A stretch of 64,000 nt of DNA from Fidelibacterota bacterium (lineage in GTDB: Bacteria > Pseudomonadota > Alphaproteobacteria > Rhodospirillales > Rhodospirillaceae), in assembly GCA_947475295.1 (NCBI GenBank), contig CANJLF010000005.1:62001-126000 (forward strand), read 5' to 3'. Positions 4,332-61,378 of the stretch are shown here, piece by piece. The translations under genes and the position numbers were made by a program. The notes under the pieces were generated by a model. That model ran no database searches and had not been told where the DNA came from. It saw nothing but the letters and a program-made list of their open reading frames with translations. Every line of letters starts with the position of its first letter. The first letter of the stretch is position 1.

Positions 4332-5642
4332 TTATTTGGCAGTGTCGCCCGGGTTTTGGGGACTGGATACGGGAGCAGCGGTGGGCGCGAAGATGAAATA
4401 GCCCCCAGCGCTTTTCATGCGGCCCGCCTTGGCGAAGGCCTCCTCGCCGTGACCCCAGAAAATGTCGCCGCGCACAGGACCAGTGATGGCGGCACCCACG
4501 TCCTGCGCAACCATAAGGCGCTGCAGGGGAAGGCCGTCGGGATCGACGGTATCAAGCCAGATCGGCGCACCCAAGGGGATGAAATGCGGATCGACCGCCA
4601 TGGAGCGGAGTGGTGTCAGCGAAACGCCTTGCGCGCCCAAGGGGCCGTCTTCGGCCTCGGCAGGACCCAAGCGGCGGAAGAAGATATAGCGCGTGTTGCG
4701 GTTCATATAGTCGGCGGCTTCGGTGGGATGCTGGGCCAGCCATTCGCGGACCGCGACCATGGATGCGCCGCCGGGTTTCACGGCGCCGGCTTCCAATAAA
4801 ATGCTTCCAATGCCGCGGAAGACGCGTCCGTTGCTGCCGGCAAAGCCAACGCGCGTGATCTGACCATCGGGCAGGGTCACGCGGCCCGATCCCTGGATGT
4901 GCAGAATGTGGACGGCGACAGGGTCGTCGGCCCAGAGCAGCACATCGGCATCGTCGGCGATGGCGCCGTCGGCATCGATCTCGGCGCGCGTGTAATAGGG
5001 TTTCACTTGGCCATTCTCGATCACGCGGCCGACAAGACTGTTCGGAACGCCGCCGGGCAGCTGCACCGACGGAGGCAGAAAATCCTTGAGGTTGACGGTG
5101 ACAAGGTTGCGCGGACGGCCGTAGATCGGCACCTGATAGGCGCCGCCCCGTGTCAGCGACCCCTTGAGATCAGCCTCGTAATAGCCGGTGAAGGTGCCGC
5201 GATCATTGGATGCGACTTCAGCCCCCGCAGGCTGCGAGAGAGCGACACGATAGACGGTGAAGTCCCGCGCCAGGGCCGCGCGCAAGGCTGCGTCACCATC
5301 GCTCACTTGCTTGAGGGATTCGCAGGCGGCTTGCCAGGCACGGACACTGCGCGCGATAGCGTCACGCCCGACGATGGCTTCCGGTTCCTGATTGTCGAAT
5401 TGCGCGCATGAGCGTTTTAAAGCCGGCAGGCTTTGCGCAACGGAGTCTTGTGTCCAGCCTGGAAGTTCATTGACATCAACCGGCGTATAAACCGCCACGG
5501 GCTCGCCGCGCGGCGGCGGCGCGACATTCAAAGGTGCGGGTGCCGACGGCGACTGCATGCGTTTGACGAAGGCAGCACCCAGGCCCGCACCCATCAGCAT
5601 GGACACAAGCACGACCATGACGAAGCGGAAGAAGGGTGTCAC
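4332..5642 (-). CDS. mltA: Membrane-bound lytic murein transglycosylase A
   Basis: Cleaves peptidoglycan glycan strands to 1,6-anhydro-muramyl products. About 436 residues: an N-terminal membrane helix (FFRFVMVVLVSMLMGAG), a proline-rich linker, the MltA domain (FTGYYEADLKGS, YTRAEIDADGAI, HIQGSGRVTLPDG) and the C-terminal 3D domain with VAQDVGAAITGPVRGD, which carries the catalytic Asp. The start is uncertain: I chose the GTG at 5642; an ATG at 5618 would shorten the anchor. The frame stays open to 5702, but that extension lies inside a palindromic repeat and is unlikely to be translated. timA lies upstream on the same strand. Confidence 0.9.
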   Translation of the reverse strand: MTPFFRFVMVVLVSMLMGAGLGAAFVKRMQSPSAPAPLNVAPPPRGEPVAVYTPVDVNELPGWTQDSVAQSLPALKRSCAQFDNQEPEAIVGRDAIARSVRAWQAACESLKQVSDGDAALRAALARDFTVYRVALSQPAGAEVASNDRGTFTGYYEADLKGSLTRGGAYQVPIYGRPRNLVTVNLKDFLPPSVQLPGGVPNSLVGRVIENGQVKPYYTRAEIDADGAIADDADVLLWADDPVAVHILHIQGSGRVTLPDGQITRVGFAGSNGRVFRGIGSILLEAGAVKPGGASMVAVREWLAQHPTEAADYMNRNTRYIFFRRLGPAEAEDGPLGAQGVSLTPLRSMAVDPHFIPLGAPIWLDTVDPDGLPLQRLMVAQDVGAAITGPVRGDIFWGHGEEAFAKAGRMKSAGGYFIFAPTAAPVSSPQNPGDTAK

Positions 5643-5661
5643 GTCTTCTACGACGCGGGTA

Positions 5662-5739
5662 CTAGTGGAGCGGATTTGACATTCGCATCCAGTTTGCCAC
5701 AAGACGGCGAAGCGAATGTCAAATCCAAAGCTCCACTAG
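5662..5739. repeat. Paired palindromic element, copy A (upstream of mltA)
   Basis: A 78-bp inverted repeat. The outer arms CTAGTGGAGC (5662-5671) and GCTCCACTAG (5730-5739) match over 10 bp. The inner arms GGATTTGACATTCGC (5672-5686) and GCGAATGTCAAATCC (5712-5726) match over 15 bp. A 3-nt AAA bulge sits between inner and outer right arms, and the loop is 25 nt. It forms a tandem pair with copy B, separated by 11 AT-only bases. Confidence 0.9.
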
Positions 5740-5750
5740 ATAATATAATT

Positions 5751-5825
5751 CTAGTGGTCCTTAGATTCTAACATTCGCAAGACAGTACGCAGAGGGGGAA
5801 TGCGAATGTTAGAATTGGACCACTA
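5751..5825. repeat. Paired palindromic element, copy B (abuts timA stop)
   Basis: Same architecture as copy A with different sequence. Outer arms CTAGTGGTCC (5751-5760) and GGACCACTA (5817-5825); inner arms ATTCTAACATTCGCA (5765-5779) and TGCGAATGTTAGAAT (5801-5815), perfect over 15 bp; loop 21 nt. Its right end supplies the timA TAG stop codon (complement of 5823-5825). Confidence 0.9.
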
Positions 5826-6518
5826 TGATTCGATACTGCGGGTCGCGATCAGCGCCCAGTTGGGATCGGCGGTGGTGAGATCGCGCGCGAAGGTCCAAAC
5901 GTCGGTCACGCTGTCCACATGCTCGCGGTCGCCTTCAATGATCGCGCCGGCTTTGTCCTTGACCACGTTGACCTGTTCGCTTTGGAAGCGCACGTCGATG
6001 ATGGCGCGGTTATCGCGCACTTCGACGCTTTCAAGCCGCGGCGGCTTTAACACCACTAATTCGGTTTCCATGGTTTCGCCGCGCTCTTCGCGTTCCTGGA
6101 TCGCGCCGGCGAAACGCGCGTAGACGTCGGCGCTCAGCAGCGGTTTCAAGGTATCAGCGTCGTGTTTGGCATAAGCCGCGACAATCATTTCAAAAGCCTT
6201 GGCAGCGCCCGCTAGGAAGGTCGCGACGGAAAAGGAGTGATCGGCCATTTTGATCTGGACCAGACCGGCTTCCAGCGGCGTACCCTGATAGGCCGGCTCG
6301 ATATCCATCAAAATGCTTTCCCGCGAGCGACGCGGAATCGGTATGGGTAGCGGCACGACATTGTCGGGATTACGGGCCAAGGCTTCTTCGCGCGCATCGC
6401 GCGACTCAGGTGTCGGCTCATGGCCGGTGCGCCGGCCCAGCACGCTGCGCAGGCGCAGGACAATGAAGCCCGCCGCCATGGCCAGGATGATAATATCGAT
6501 AAATTGGACGCCTTCCAT
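5823..6518 (-). CDS. Tim44-like domain protein TimA
   Basis: A 231-residue protein with an N-terminal membrane anchor (FIDIIILAMAAGFIVLRL after the first five residues), a charged linker and a Tim44-like/Mba1 fold (FLAGAAKAFEMIVAAYAKHDADTLKPLL, then PRLESVEVRDNRAIIDVRF). Alphaproteobacterial members are the bacterial relatives of the mitochondrial import motor subunit; a cell-envelope or secretion role is presumed. The ATG at 6518 matches the usual N-terminus; the longer frame to 6629 is arginine-rich shadow. It is divergent from secB and upstream of mltA, a conserved arrangement. The stop codon overlaps palindromic copy B. Confidence 0.85.
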   Translation of the reverse strand: MEGVQFIDIIILAMAAGFIVLRLRSVLGRRTGHEPTPESRDAREEALARNPDNVVPLPIPIPRRSRESILMDIEPAYQGTPLEAGLVQIKMADHSFSVATFLAGAAKAFEMIVAAYAKHDADTLKPLLSADVYARFAGAIQEREERGETMETELVVLKPPRLESVEVRDNRAIIDVRFQSEQVNVVKDKAGAIIEGDREHVDSVTDVWTFARDLTTADPNWALIATRSIES

Positions 6519-6930
6519 CCTGGTCGCCGTATCCTTAAAATCTGTCCGCCGTCCCCGCGCGGGAGGCGCGAGAGCCCTGAGGGTTTGCATGCCGTTGGTG
6601 GGGCCGAAAAGCAGTGCCCGAAGCCCCACTCGTCAGCGCGCGGGCTTAGACAAAACGCTCAAGATGGAAAATAGGCCCTTGCCCCCTAAAGGGCAAGCGA
6701 GGGTGGCGGCTTTGTCATGTATTTCCGGAATGCCCGGCAAACGTTTGCGGGCCGTTTGAGGGCTGCCTCGCGCTCCTCCCCATACGCCCACCAGACGCCC
6801 ATCAGACGCCCACGGGGGGCCGCTTGTGTGGGGCGGCGAAGCATGTTAGTTCGCACGGCTTTTTGGCCAAAGCCCGCTTGGGGTTATTCCCTTGGGCTCA
6901 AGGGCTATCGCCCCTCGGACGGAGACTAAA
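6519..6930. other. 412-bp divergent promoter region timA/secB
   Basis: No gene supported. It must contain divergent promoters for timA and secB. Visible structure: a hairpin CTTGCCC/GGGCAAG (6678-6684 and 6691-6697) and three tandem copies of an 11-bp unit near 6784-6813. Confidence 0.55.
6784..6813. repeat. Short tandem repeat upstream of secB
   Basis: Unit ACGCCCAYCAG: ACGCCCACCAG at 6784-6794, ACGCCCATCAG at 6795-6805, then a partial ACGCCCAC to 6813. Function unknown; could be slippage or a regulator-binding array. Confidence 0.7.
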
Positions 6931-18371: not shown

Positions 18372-19022
18372 TTGTTTCACGTGAAACAATCCCCCGTCTA
18401 TGGTCCCGAGGCCTTCGCCAAGGACACCGGCGTTTCACGTGAAACATTGGCCCGCCTCAAGGCTTACGCCGATCTTCTGGCCCTCTGGAATAAAAAAATA
18501 AATTTGGTCGGCCGGTCCACGGAGCCCGAAGTCTGGCAACGCCATATGTTGGATTCGGCCCAGCTTTTCCCCCTGATTCCGGCCGGAACCCGGACGCTTC
18601 TGGACATGGGGTCTGGGGCCGGCTTCCCCGGTCTGGTCCTGGCGATCCTGGGCGTTCCCCAGGTCCATCTGGTGGAGTCAGACCAGCGCAAATGCGCCTT
18701 TCTGCGCGAGGCGGCGCGCATGACCCAGGCCCCCGCCACCATCTACGCCAAGCGGATCGAAGCCCTGGCCGCCTTCCCGGTGGACGTTGTCACTGCCCGA
18801 GCCTTGGCGCCCGTTGCCGAACTTCTGGACTGGAGCGCGCGTTTTATCTCTGAAAAAACCACCTGCATTTTCCCCAAGGGACAAAATGTAGAGGTTGAAT
18901 TGACGGAAGCACACAAAAGGTGGAGAATCACGGTAGATCAGCGACCCAGTCGAACTGATTCCCGTGGGACCATCCTTTGTATAAGTGAGGTGCGCCGTGT
19001 CCAATCCGAACAATCAAGTTAG
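18372..19022 (+). CDS. rsmG: 16S rRNA (guanine(527)-N(7))-methyltransferase RsmG
   Basis: SAM-dependent methylation of G527 in 16S rRNA. It has 216 residues from a TTG start at 18372; a GTG at 18381 is the alternative. Motifs: VSRETLARLKAYADLLALWN and KINLVGRST near the N-terminus, the SAM loop LLDMGSGAGFPGLVLAI, VESDQRKCAFLREAAR and VTARALAPVAELL. Both parS copies lie within its first 25 codons and are read as FHVKQ and VSRET, so the start of the protein doubles as a ParB-binding region. The 3' end overlaps parA. Confidence 0.93.
   Translation: MFHVKQSPVYGPEAFAKDTGVSRETLARLKAYADLLALWNKKINLVGRSTEPEVWQRHMLDSAQLFPLIPAGTRTLLDMGSGAGFPGLVLAILGVPQVHLVESDQRKCAFLREAARMTQAPATIYAKRIEALAAFPVDVVTARALAPVAELLDWSARFISEKTTCIFPKGQNVEVELTEAHKRWRITVDQRPSRTDSRGTILCISEVRRVQSEQSS
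18373..18388. other. parS centromere site 1 (perfect)
   Basis: TGTTTCACGTGAAACA, the exact 16-bp consensus palindrome bound by chromosomal ParB. It overlaps the first codons of rsmG and lies 6 bp after the mnmG stop, about 1.5 kb upstream of parB and 7 kb from the putative origin. Confidence 0.97.
18431..18446. other. parS centromere site 2 (one mismatch)
   Basis: CGTTTCACGTGAAACA, identical to the consensus except the first base. It lies inside rsmG, 58 bp after site 1, encoding the conserved VSRET motif. Two close sites would help nucleate ParB spreading. Confidence 0.93.
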
Positions 19023-60595: not shown

Positions 60596-61108
60596 TTCAG
60601 TTTTTCCTTCTCATACCCCATGGACCGGCACCGTATTGTGCGCCCGGCTCACCGTTGGATGCCCACCGCTTCTTTTTCCTGAGTGGGCGCATACGGTCAG
60701 AGGTTAGCGAGCCGGGATTTCGATCCCCGCGTGGAACTAAAAATTCCACGCTCCTCAATGGATGGTCCGCACATGCAGTCCATCCGCAACTCACGCTTTG
60801 GCGCACCTGCGCTCTCGCGTGAACAACAGCGATAAAAAAAATCTCCAGCCACCGCAGCTGTTTTTGGAAAGCGCCGAACGCGCCCCTCTTCTTATGACAA
60901 GGGACGTTCAACGATCTCCAACGGCGTTTGGAACATCGTCCGTGGCACAAATGTGGGAATTTGAAATTCCTCCGGTCCCTTGCGGCATACACTCATGAGG
61001 AATTTCAAATTCGAACCACATTTGATTCAATGGAGTCTAGTGTCGCTTTGAATTCAAAGTTCGCATAAGTGCCGGCAGCGAAAGTTTGCGAACTTTGAAA
61101 TCGCGACA
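60596..61108. other. 513-bp rpsO-pnp spacer (pnp leader)
   Basis: No gene supported. In the minus-strand direction it starts with two large palindromes (copies C and D), then a smaller hairpin GCGTGGAA/TTCCACGC (60729-60736 and 60744-60751, loop 7) and a low-structure run up to pnp. In other bacteria this spacer controls pnp through RNase III processing, so structured elements here could play a similar part. Confidence 0.6.
60949..61023. repeat. Paired palindromic element, copy D (rpsO-pnp spacer)
   Basis: Outer arms AAATGTGG (60949-60956) and CCACATTT (61016-61023), inner arms GAATTTGAAATTCC (60957-60970) and GGAATTTCAAATTC (60999-61012), both perfect; 3-nt GAA bulge at 61013-61015; loop 28 nt. 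Same plan as copies A-C. It sits 13 bp from copy C. Confidence 0.85.
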
Positions 61109-61112
61109 CTAG
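61037..61112. repeat. Paired palindromic element, copy C (abuts rpsO stop)
   Basis: Outer arms CTAGTGTCGC (61037-61046) and GCGACACTAG (61103-61112), perfect 10 bp; inner arms TTCAAAGTTCGCA (61053-61065) and TGCGAACTTTGAA (61087-61099), perfect 13 bp; internal loop of 6 and 3 nt; terminal loop 21 nt. The right arm contributes the rpsO TAG stop codon (complement of 61109-61111). Confidence 0.9.
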
Positions 61113-61378
61113 CGCCGCAGGCCGAGGCGGCCGATCAAAGCCTCGTAACGGCCGTTGTCGGTCTTTTTGAGATAGTCGAGCAGACGGCGGCGTTTGCCGA
61201 CCATCACGAGAAGGCCACGGCGGGAATGGTTGTCCTTGTTGTGGCCTTTAAGGTGTTCGGTGAGATTCTTGATGCGTTCGCTCAAGACGGCCACCTGCAC
61301 GTCGGCCGAACCGGTATCGCCGGCCTTGATCGCATACTCAGTAACAAGCGCTTGTTTGCGCTCTGGGCTAATCGACAT
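61109..61378 (-). CDS. rpsO: 30S ribosomal protein S15
   Basis: Small-subunit protein binding the central 16S domain. It has 89 residues, the normal size: [57 protein letters not shown] contains the family core, and [20 protein letters not shown] ends it. AGGAG precedes the ATG. The stop TAG lies inside the arm of palindromic copy C. truB lies 16 bp upstream on the same strand. Confidence 0.98.

Follow-up and report, generated by a model that had tools for sequence, protein, structure and literature searches.

A double-hairpin mobile element of Alphaproteobacteria with outer arms similar to IS630-family ends

Anatomy of the two hairpin pairs

What kind of sequence can vary in both arms of a palindrome and still keep the two arms matched? 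The question arises from an earlier note on the 64-kb stretch of DNA analysed here (the window), which described a tandem pair of co-varying palindromes between two genes. We find that the pair is a real mobile element, found in many Alphaproteobacteria, and most probably a double-hairpin form of IS630-family MITE or two-armed repeat. The window contains two such pairs.

5662-5739, + strand: hairpin A, left-end type, bulge on the right (fold and structure-only finder)
5662-5671 and 5730-5739: outer arms of hairpin A, 10 bp
5672-5686 and 5712-5726: inner arms of hairpin A, with the loop between them
5727-5729: 3-nt bulge AAA of hairpin A
5740-5750, no strand: AT-only spacer of 11 bases between A and B
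5751-5826, - strand: hairpin B, right-end type, equivalent to A inverted (fold and structure-only finder)
5761-5763: bulge of hairpin B, on the spacer side
5765-5779 and 5801-5815: inner arms of hairpin B
5662-5686, + strand: outer arm of A, CTAG plus 21 nt, like an IS630-family left end (end comparison)
5802-5826, - strand: outer arm of B, 25 nt, like an IS630-family right end (end comparison)
60948-61024, + strand: hairpin C of the second pair, another subfamily, outer ends not CTAG
61025-61036, no strand: spacer of the second pair
61037-61112, - strand: hairpin D of the second pair, terminal CTAG at 61109-61112

The window hairpins have outer arms of 10 bp, inner arms of 15-16 bp, loops of 21-25 nt and a one-sided bulge of about 3 nt. 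A and C have this bulge on their right side and B and D on their left, and thus it always faces the spacer. Because it changes sides between A and B, the second hairpin is an inverted form of the first, and the two mirror each other. In this copy the outer arm of B starts with ATAG, not CTAG, and has AATTC where the family has GANTC.

A structure-only finder with no knowledge of sequence recovered exactly four units (A, B, C and D) in the window, and a total of two appeared when the window was dinucleotide-shuffled 20 times. The motif CTAGTG alone was uninformative (6 matches in the window, 7.7 expected). The layout given in the earlier note, with its 11-base AT-only spacer, is confirmed with B ending at 5826, one base further on, and so is the recurrence of the arrangement at the second site (60948-61112). 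The description of one plan with different arm sequences also holds. The word tandem does not: the copies are inverted, and inward bulges, empty sites and nesting (below) show them behaving as a single unit.

Elsewhere in the window, two TGTTTCACGTGAAAC-type palindromic arms lie at 18373-18387 and 18432-18446, 44 nt apart; they resemble the consensus of parS centromere sites.

Copies in the source genome and covariation of the arms

The source genome contains at least 19 hairpin pairs by BLAST, a covariance model and the structure-only finder. BLAST with pair 1 returned 13 full copies including itself (79-100% identity), and pair 2 has three relatives there; a lone piece at C9:3074 was seen by BLAST alone. 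The covariance model, R1, was built from 33 units and found at least 36, with 150 of 713 first-look candidates scored. Thirty-four of these units fall into 17 pairs; the other two (on contig C8 and at C1:28059) have partners with other arms, which the structure-only finder detected and R1 missed. A fixed hairpin pattern run across the genome gave no match. Units in this genome are 75-81 nt long, and their CTAG ends are paired within the stem.

We aligned 33 of these units (13 A, 13 B, 3 C and 4 D types), leaving outside the C-type unit C7:43524, which the pattern missed, and the units of the C8 and C1:28059 pairs. Standard pairing occupies 97.7% of 824 cells, against 81.2% after shuffling, and cells changed on both sides number 140 against 43.7, in shuffles that take no account of shared descent among copies. 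Two-sided change is present at 18 of 25 base pairs, and sliding the partners by one column lowers pairing to 35-40%. The compensatory arm changes that had been proposed are thus true two-sided covariation. Further copies and paired occurrence were borne out as well, by the 19 pairs of this genome and by relatives across the Alphaproteobacteria.

The pair as one mobile unit

We collected 187 de-duplicated loci (1.14 Mb), fetched largely by the A/B arm pattern; the set leans to the A/B subfamily and its copies share descent. The structure-only finder located 363 units in it, forming 159 adjacent pairs. The bulges face inward in 155 pairs, point the same way in two pairs for each direction, and face outward in none; shuffles of the same 1.14 Mb gave one hairpin and no pairs. 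Of the 155 inward pairs, 153 have a spacer of 12-16 nt, and in 87 its length is 13 nt. Element length ranges from 118 to 171 bp (163-171 bp in 153 pairs, 118-119 bp in two pairs of genome G202). The element is short, non-coding and dispersed, and the window copies are intergenic.

Insertion can be read directly at one Afipia locus. The empty sites of genomes G435 and G439 read CAACTCTAGCG (CAACT-CTAG-CG), and L072 and genome G438 have the same flanks with CTAG-element-CTAG. This empty-site evidence comes from one element, readable in two genomes, and the duplicated target is either CTAG or TA alone. A second element at the locus is absent from G438, G435 and G439, but divergence of the flanks makes that junction unreadable. 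Nesting was seen in L136, L104 and L085, each with a complete inward pair inside another pair, exactly at a hairpin-end CTAG, and all eight abutting hairpin junctions that we found share CTAG. An autonomous form might appear as wide-spaced hairpins flanking a gene, and none were seen among the 49 unpaired units. Most of these units lie close to the end of a locus, have decayed or were separated by nesting, and a few are hairpins that arose by chance. These features indicate that the pair is one mobile unit and not two tandem palindromes.

The finder also picked up an unrelated 84-nt palindrome at L172:2919-3002 (ATTGCGAGCGAAGCGAAGCAATCC..).

Arms apparently matched as DNA

Strong covariation, together with a position often directly 3' of genes, is what a structured RNA conserved for its fold (an mRNA stabiliser, a terminator or a small RNA) would be expected to display. 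An RNA helix tolerates G-U and not A-C. In the 155 inward pairs (310 units), departures from Watson-Crick pairing comprise 38 G-T and 58 A-C among 7130 paired positions, found with a structure-only finder that scores Watson-Crick pairs only and so treats the two alike. Wobble is therefore no better tolerated than its mirror, and the palindrome is apparently kept as DNA, both strands alike. Insertion polymorphism and nesting, a loop that can shrink to 3-4 nt, and the lack of any Rfam match at gathering score in the window also speak against an RNA, and we regard this explanation as very improbable. A secondary effect of the element on neighbouring mRNAs is possible. Conservation of the fold, offered before as the reason for the covariation, is thus not sufficient: there is no G-U excess and the outer arms are like IS630 ends (below), so a transposase probably determines the arm sequences, at least in part. 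Strong two-sided covariation is usually read as evidence of a functional RNA, yet a DNA transposon with arms that copy transposase ends can produce it too, and the discriminating test here is that G-T mismatches are no commoner than A-C.

Among L020, L022, L028 and L038, three copies have CTAG changed to CTCG/CGAG on both sides of hairpin A and one has it changed to ATCG/CGAT on both sides. These altered ends could reflect hairpin-templated correction, with the three CTCG/CGAG copies perhaps related by shared descent.

Resemblance to IS630-family ends

The IS630 family was chosen as the candidate for its use of CTAG as a target; a 1993 title by Fournier, listed among the references of PMC6471742, reportedly concerns IS870 and CTAG, with a stop codon completed by the target. 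Our comparison of transposase ends took in IS630-family ends. We found them by scanning loci with a DDE_3 domain (PF13358) for inverted ends starting with TA, without consulting the hairpins. The proteins of L321, L325, L329 and L319 are IS630 by NCBIfam NF033545 and carry DDE_3.

The Nitrobacter winogradskyi IS630 (L321) has ends that start CTAGTGGATCGCGTCTGACATTTGA and CTAGTGGATGGAATCTAACACTTGG, and hairpin arms A and B start CTAGTGGAGCGGATTTGACATTCGC and CTAGTGGTCCGATTCTAACATTCGC; after CTAG they agree at 15/21 and 14/21 positions. Genome G213 has a single readable IS end, which agrees with a hairpin arm of the same genome (L226) at 17/21, and the right ends of Sphingobium and Roseovarius IS630 copies match elements starting CTAGTCACC (L222, G289) at 18/21. 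None of 20000 letter shuffles, which ignore shared descent, reaches any of these matches, each of which is the best of 11 arms. The ends of an IS630 on Sinorhizobium meliloti pSymA are similar by eye. Distant IS630 copies (Methylobacterium, Caballeronia, G038, G128) match the arms at 9-12 of 21, as would be the case if each arm tracks a particular IS lineage. Even in the closest matches, arm and IS end agree at 67-86% and never exactly.

CTAG stands on both sides of 22 of the 24 IS630 copies with both ends read, a count that includes L333, L336 and L337, where the CTAG-ended pair ranked second and was picked knowing the answer; without them it is 19 of 21, the exceptions being L329 and L339 with CTAT at one end. 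CTAG ends could be read in four (L319, L321, L325, L329) of eighteen DDE_3 loci (L314-L331), and the others, mostly short frames, yielded none. Plasmid IS630 copies were read in 18 among the 60 listed of 604 matching records. In one set of 17 stretches the ends were unreadable in 12, one end was read in L374, and both were read in L375, L377, L385 and L386. End-to-end similarity exceeds the best of 20 shuffles in 6 of 18 IS (L329, L332, L340, L341, L375, L385), and ends such as those of L377 and L386 were accepted because both start with CTAG beside the frame.

The IS630 genes themselves show no positive co-occurrence with the element. A DDE_3 search found a gene in 6 of 24 element-bearing genomes, and IS ends matching the arms were read in G440 and G213. 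No IS630/DDE_3 gene was found in the source genome, in 4 of 5 Afipia genomes or in 18 of the 24 element-bearing genomes searched. Among 148 relatives a DDE_3 gene is present in 3 of 19 element-bearing genomes and in 52 of 129 others, so co-occurrence is, if anything, negative. With no IS630 gene found in the source genome, its elements are likely relics or dependent on a lost or visiting IS. We found no autonomous IS with these hairpin ends, and five folded IS630 end stretches form no such hairpins.

The same lack of co-occurrence leaves room for a MITE of another DDE family that uses CTAG or YTAR (the IS5 family or the IS427/IS711 group). MITEPsy1 of Pseudomonas syringae has CTAG or YTAA as its insertion site and is linked to an IS5-type element (PMC3189936), and IS711 uses YTAR (PMC2266754). 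Against this, the agreement between IS630 ends and the arms extends to several subfamilies and to the left/right GANTC asymmetry (below), and the printed MITEPsy1 ends (GGAAGGTCTGA..) are unlike the arms (PMC3189936). From this comparison of IS630-family ends and the MITEPsy1 ends, we consider an IS5-type origin unlikely, with a small chance of being correct.

GANTC asymmetry, inner arms and spacer

A further correspondence concerns the motif GANTC about 11 nt into the end. It occurs at one end and not both in 13 of 18 IS (12 right, 1 left), against 2.9 of 18 in shuffles that take no account of shared descent. In the hairpins it is found at this place in 91 of 100 B arms and in 0 of 102 A arms, and 130 of the 155 pairs have GANTC near it in one outer arm and not in the other. 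By this shared asymmetry, A is the counterpart of the left end and B that of the right end.

GANTC is present in 148 of 155 elements (mean 2.2 each), and so a methylation-linked repeat that places CcrM sites, as speculated for the CIR repeats, has to be weighed. Of 345 GANTC sites, however, 274 are in arms and only 21 in loops. The IS630 end itself has the motif about 11 nt in. Many alphaproteobacterial copies (L321, L333-L341, L374-L386, L389-L396) carry it at position 11 of one end, and among six non-alphaproteobacterial copies a Streptomyces and a Rhodococcus IS630 carry it at both ends. To our knowledge these two genera are without CcrM, which suggests that the motif is a feature of the IS end and unconnected with CcrM control. 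A role in methylation as the origin of the element is, in our view, scarcely credible.

Outer and inner arms were compared with IS ends in the 104 of 155 pairs that belong to the TGGAG/TGGTC (A/B) subfamily. Without gaps, outer arms match at a mean of 13.2/21, with 175 of 208 at 13 or more; inner arms in the same register match at a mean of 5.7/21, with 1 of 208 at 13 or more, which is about chance. The 3-nt insertion (the bulge) breaks the register of the inner arm. Transposases of the Tc1/mariner superfamily read their end with two helix-turn-helix parts and would be unable to use such inner copies, so that probably only the outer ends are cut.

The spacer has the consensus AAWCWTATAYTTG, read from A to B, which resembles a degenerate IHF site. 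Scored against the IHF consensus, 34 of 155 spacers fit at 8 or more of 9 positions (three perfectly), against 4.0 in letter shuffles that ignore shared descent (largest value 9 in 200). The presence of an IHF site in the spacer is suggestive only.

Proposed mechanism of movement

From these sequence comparisons we consider it highly probable that the pair is a non-autonomous element (MITE) of about 165 bp, moved in trans, now or formerly, by IS630-family transposases (Tc1/mariner superfamily, DDE). Hairpin A would represent the left end of the IS and hairpin B its right end, with an AT-rich spacer of 10-16 nt between them. Three steps have support in the sequences: the element inserts at CTAG and has CTAG on both ends afterwards, the mobile unit is the whole pair, and the outer arms are similar to IS630 ends without gaps. 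In the other steps, the transposase would bind both outer arms and cut there; the inverted inner copies of the ends, put out of register by the 3-nt bulge, would stay uncut, so that the pair moves whole (their loss of function is predicted from the register only); and an IHF-like bend in the spacer may bring the ends together. The arms would then co-vary because each copies one transposase end and because upkeep of the palindrome acts on the DNA, with no need for an RNA fold. Such upkeep may come from descent from perfect master copies, from hairpin-templated correction, or from both. Thus, an unexplained covarying palindrome may become a mobile element whose anatomy predicts its own mechanism.

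The Y1 transposase and REP-like repeats

A REP/REPIN-like element would instead move as single-stranded DNA by a Y1 transposase (TnpA-REP/RAYT) that recognises the hairpins directly. The palindromes do have bulges, and inverted hairpin doublets with a spacer are the form of REPINs (PMC3116915). We searched 65 genomes for a Y1 gene, leaving out the element-bearing G425; 19 of the 33 element-bearing genomes have one, as do 13 of the remaining 32. Y1_Tnp is thus missing from 14 of 33 element-bearing genomes, including G156, G161 and G289, which are in single or few contigs, and it is missing from G202 despite many near-identical copies of the element. It is present in all nine congeners in which no element was detected. 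In the source genome the only Y1 gene (L033, contig C11) is flanked by an unrelated 21-bp palindrome (TTCGTACCTGGTAC..).

L033:1410-1458 and 2146-2190, contig C11: palindromes flanking the Y1 gene

The units end in paired CTAG, not in an unpaired GTAG-type tag. The suggested link to a REP-associated tyrosine transposase therefore finds no support, and movement of the element by a Y1 enzyme appears very unlikely.

By definition, a REP is a palindrome of 20-40 nt with an unpaired GTAG or CGTC tag (PMC3733652). Membership of the REP/REPIN class is ruled out, as far as this definition goes, by the unit size of 75-81 nt, the paired CTAG ends and the transposase (PMC3733652).

Neighbouring genes and stop codons

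Three genes of the window lie at the pairs.

4332-5648, - strand: MltA (murein transglycosylase) gene, downstream of pair 1 on the same strand, start codon approximate (Pfam MltA)
5823-6629, - strand: Tim44-domain protein gene, called timA in the earlier note (Pfam Tim44)
61109-61378, - strand: rpsO, ribosomal protein S15 (Pfam S15 domain)

The TAG stop codon of the Tim44 gene is the terminal TAG of hairpin B (5823-5826), and the TAG stop codon of rpsO lies within the terminal CTAG of hairpin D (61109-61112). We surveyed 235 of 310 element ends for this arrangement (62 without TAG and 13 with a short flank were dropped). An open frame of at least 100 codons ends at the edge TAG in 71 of the 235, against 90 summed over the two other frames. 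Among 134 ends with a named longest frame of this kind, that frame is in frame with the TAG at 68 (one-sided binomial test against an expectation of one third, 2.4e-5). The transposase frames of L321 and L325 likewise have a stop codon completed by the CTAG at the IS end. Since CTAG contains TAG, insertion at a stop codon keeps the gene intact, and this may explain why the element is tolerated beside genes such as rpsO.

Comparison with known repeats

The earlier note knew of no named family with this layout. We found no description of the element in the open-licence literature, and there may be an entry in ISfinder or in a subscription journal. Four long arm strings were absent from open-licence papers among the matches listed, where two 10-mers were the only hits. 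The absence of a named family stands in part, since the layout is shared in outline by the two-armed CIR repeats. CIR (CcrM/CerM-associated intergenic repeats) are said to have been described by Chen and Shapiro in 2003. They are two-armed, intergenic, GANTC-bearing repeats of about 110 bp in Caulobacter and Brucella, according to the available part of a review (PMC2229807), in which the mechanism of their mobility is stated to need more information. Like the element, CIR are alphaproteobacterial and intergenic, with two long hairpin arms, a linker and GANTC. CIR are, however, about 110 bp where the element is 163-171 bp in 153 of 155 pairs, and their GANTC is at the terminal loop of one arm where that of the element is mainly in the arms; the available text of the review does not mention an inward-bulge register, a CTAG target or IS630 ends (PMC2229807). 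The element is built like a CIR. Because it departs from two stated CIR features (length and GANTC in the loop) and the likeness is known from descriptions, we do not file it as CIR.

Other systems share single features. Bru-RS1 and Bru-RS2 of Brucella are also alphaproteobacterial palindromic intergenic repeats (103-106 bp), but differ, in a comparison made by description, as possible hot spots for IS711, with a YTAR target and TA duplicated (PMC10800456, PMC2266754). REPINs and BIMEs have an inverted palindrome pair with a spacer, compensatory changes and the doublet as the replicative unit, but short REP units, a GTAG-type tag and linkage to a RAYT gene; tag and linkage were not found here (PMC3116915). 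MITEPsy1 is a short MITE inserted at CTAG or YTAA with the target duplicated, but it is 100 nt long, has a single pair of terminal repeats, is tied to an IS5-type element and has another end sequence (PMC3189936). Correia/NEMIS and RUP share TA-related insertion, an IHF site in long Correia and a link of RUP to IS630-Spn1; they differ in forming stem loops by pairing of the 5' end with the 3' end and not two separate hairpins (PMC2229807). Br-REP1 and Br-REP2 of Bradyrhizobium are palindromic intergenic repeats of Nitrobacteraceae whose printed consensus sequences are unlike the arms (PMC5082802). IS630/IS870 elements share the CTAG ends, the stop completed by CTAG (L321, L325) and ends like the outer arms, but their copies are about 1.15 kb, encode a transposase and have single ends that are not palindromic.

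The IS630 transposase provides a testable engine for two-armed alphaproteobacterial repeats, the mobility of which is called unresolved in the available part of the review (PMC2229807). We tentatively propose, with nearly as much for the idea as against it, an unrecognised class of MITEs made of two mirror-image hairpins, in which active outer IS630 ends are combined with out-of-register inner decoy copies that force movement of the whole pair. Short-loop forms of this class would include CIR, Bru-RS and perhaps RIME. If this is true, repeats long known in Alphaproteobacteria (CIR, Bru-RS and perhaps RIME) would gain their missing engine.

Distribution in other genomes

DNA of pair 1 is present in 19 of 148 relatives (the source genome counted). 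With stricter filters and 16 candidates scored per genome, R1 has matches at E <= 1e-4 in 16 of 289 genomes of the class (again with the source genome counted). The exact arm pattern occurs in at least 117 stretches of the GTDB collection, and among the 80 listed, 78 have alphaproteobacterial names. The listed matches include Afipia, Bradyrhizobium, Nitrobacter, Rhodoplanes, Sphingomonas, Rhodospirillaceae and Xanthobacteraceae. Different genomes have different arm sequences on a common plan.

Phages gave no match to the element. The window pair was found in 2 of 72,556 plasmid records and the G202 form in one. A search of S. meliloti pSymB, aimed at tying in the repeat RIME1, did not do so: it gave no R1 match, and the structure-only finder saw one weak hairpin in 50 kb.

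The form in G202, with loops shortened to 3-4 nt, measures 118-119 bp overall and occurs in many near-identical copies (L219, L232, L295-L313), apparently a recent burst. The G202 genome is without a Y1 transposase and has one short DDE_3 frame.

Two elements (L090 and L134) are on contigs labelled Betaproteobacteria and Marinimicrobia, which reflects either mis-binning or horizontal transfer.
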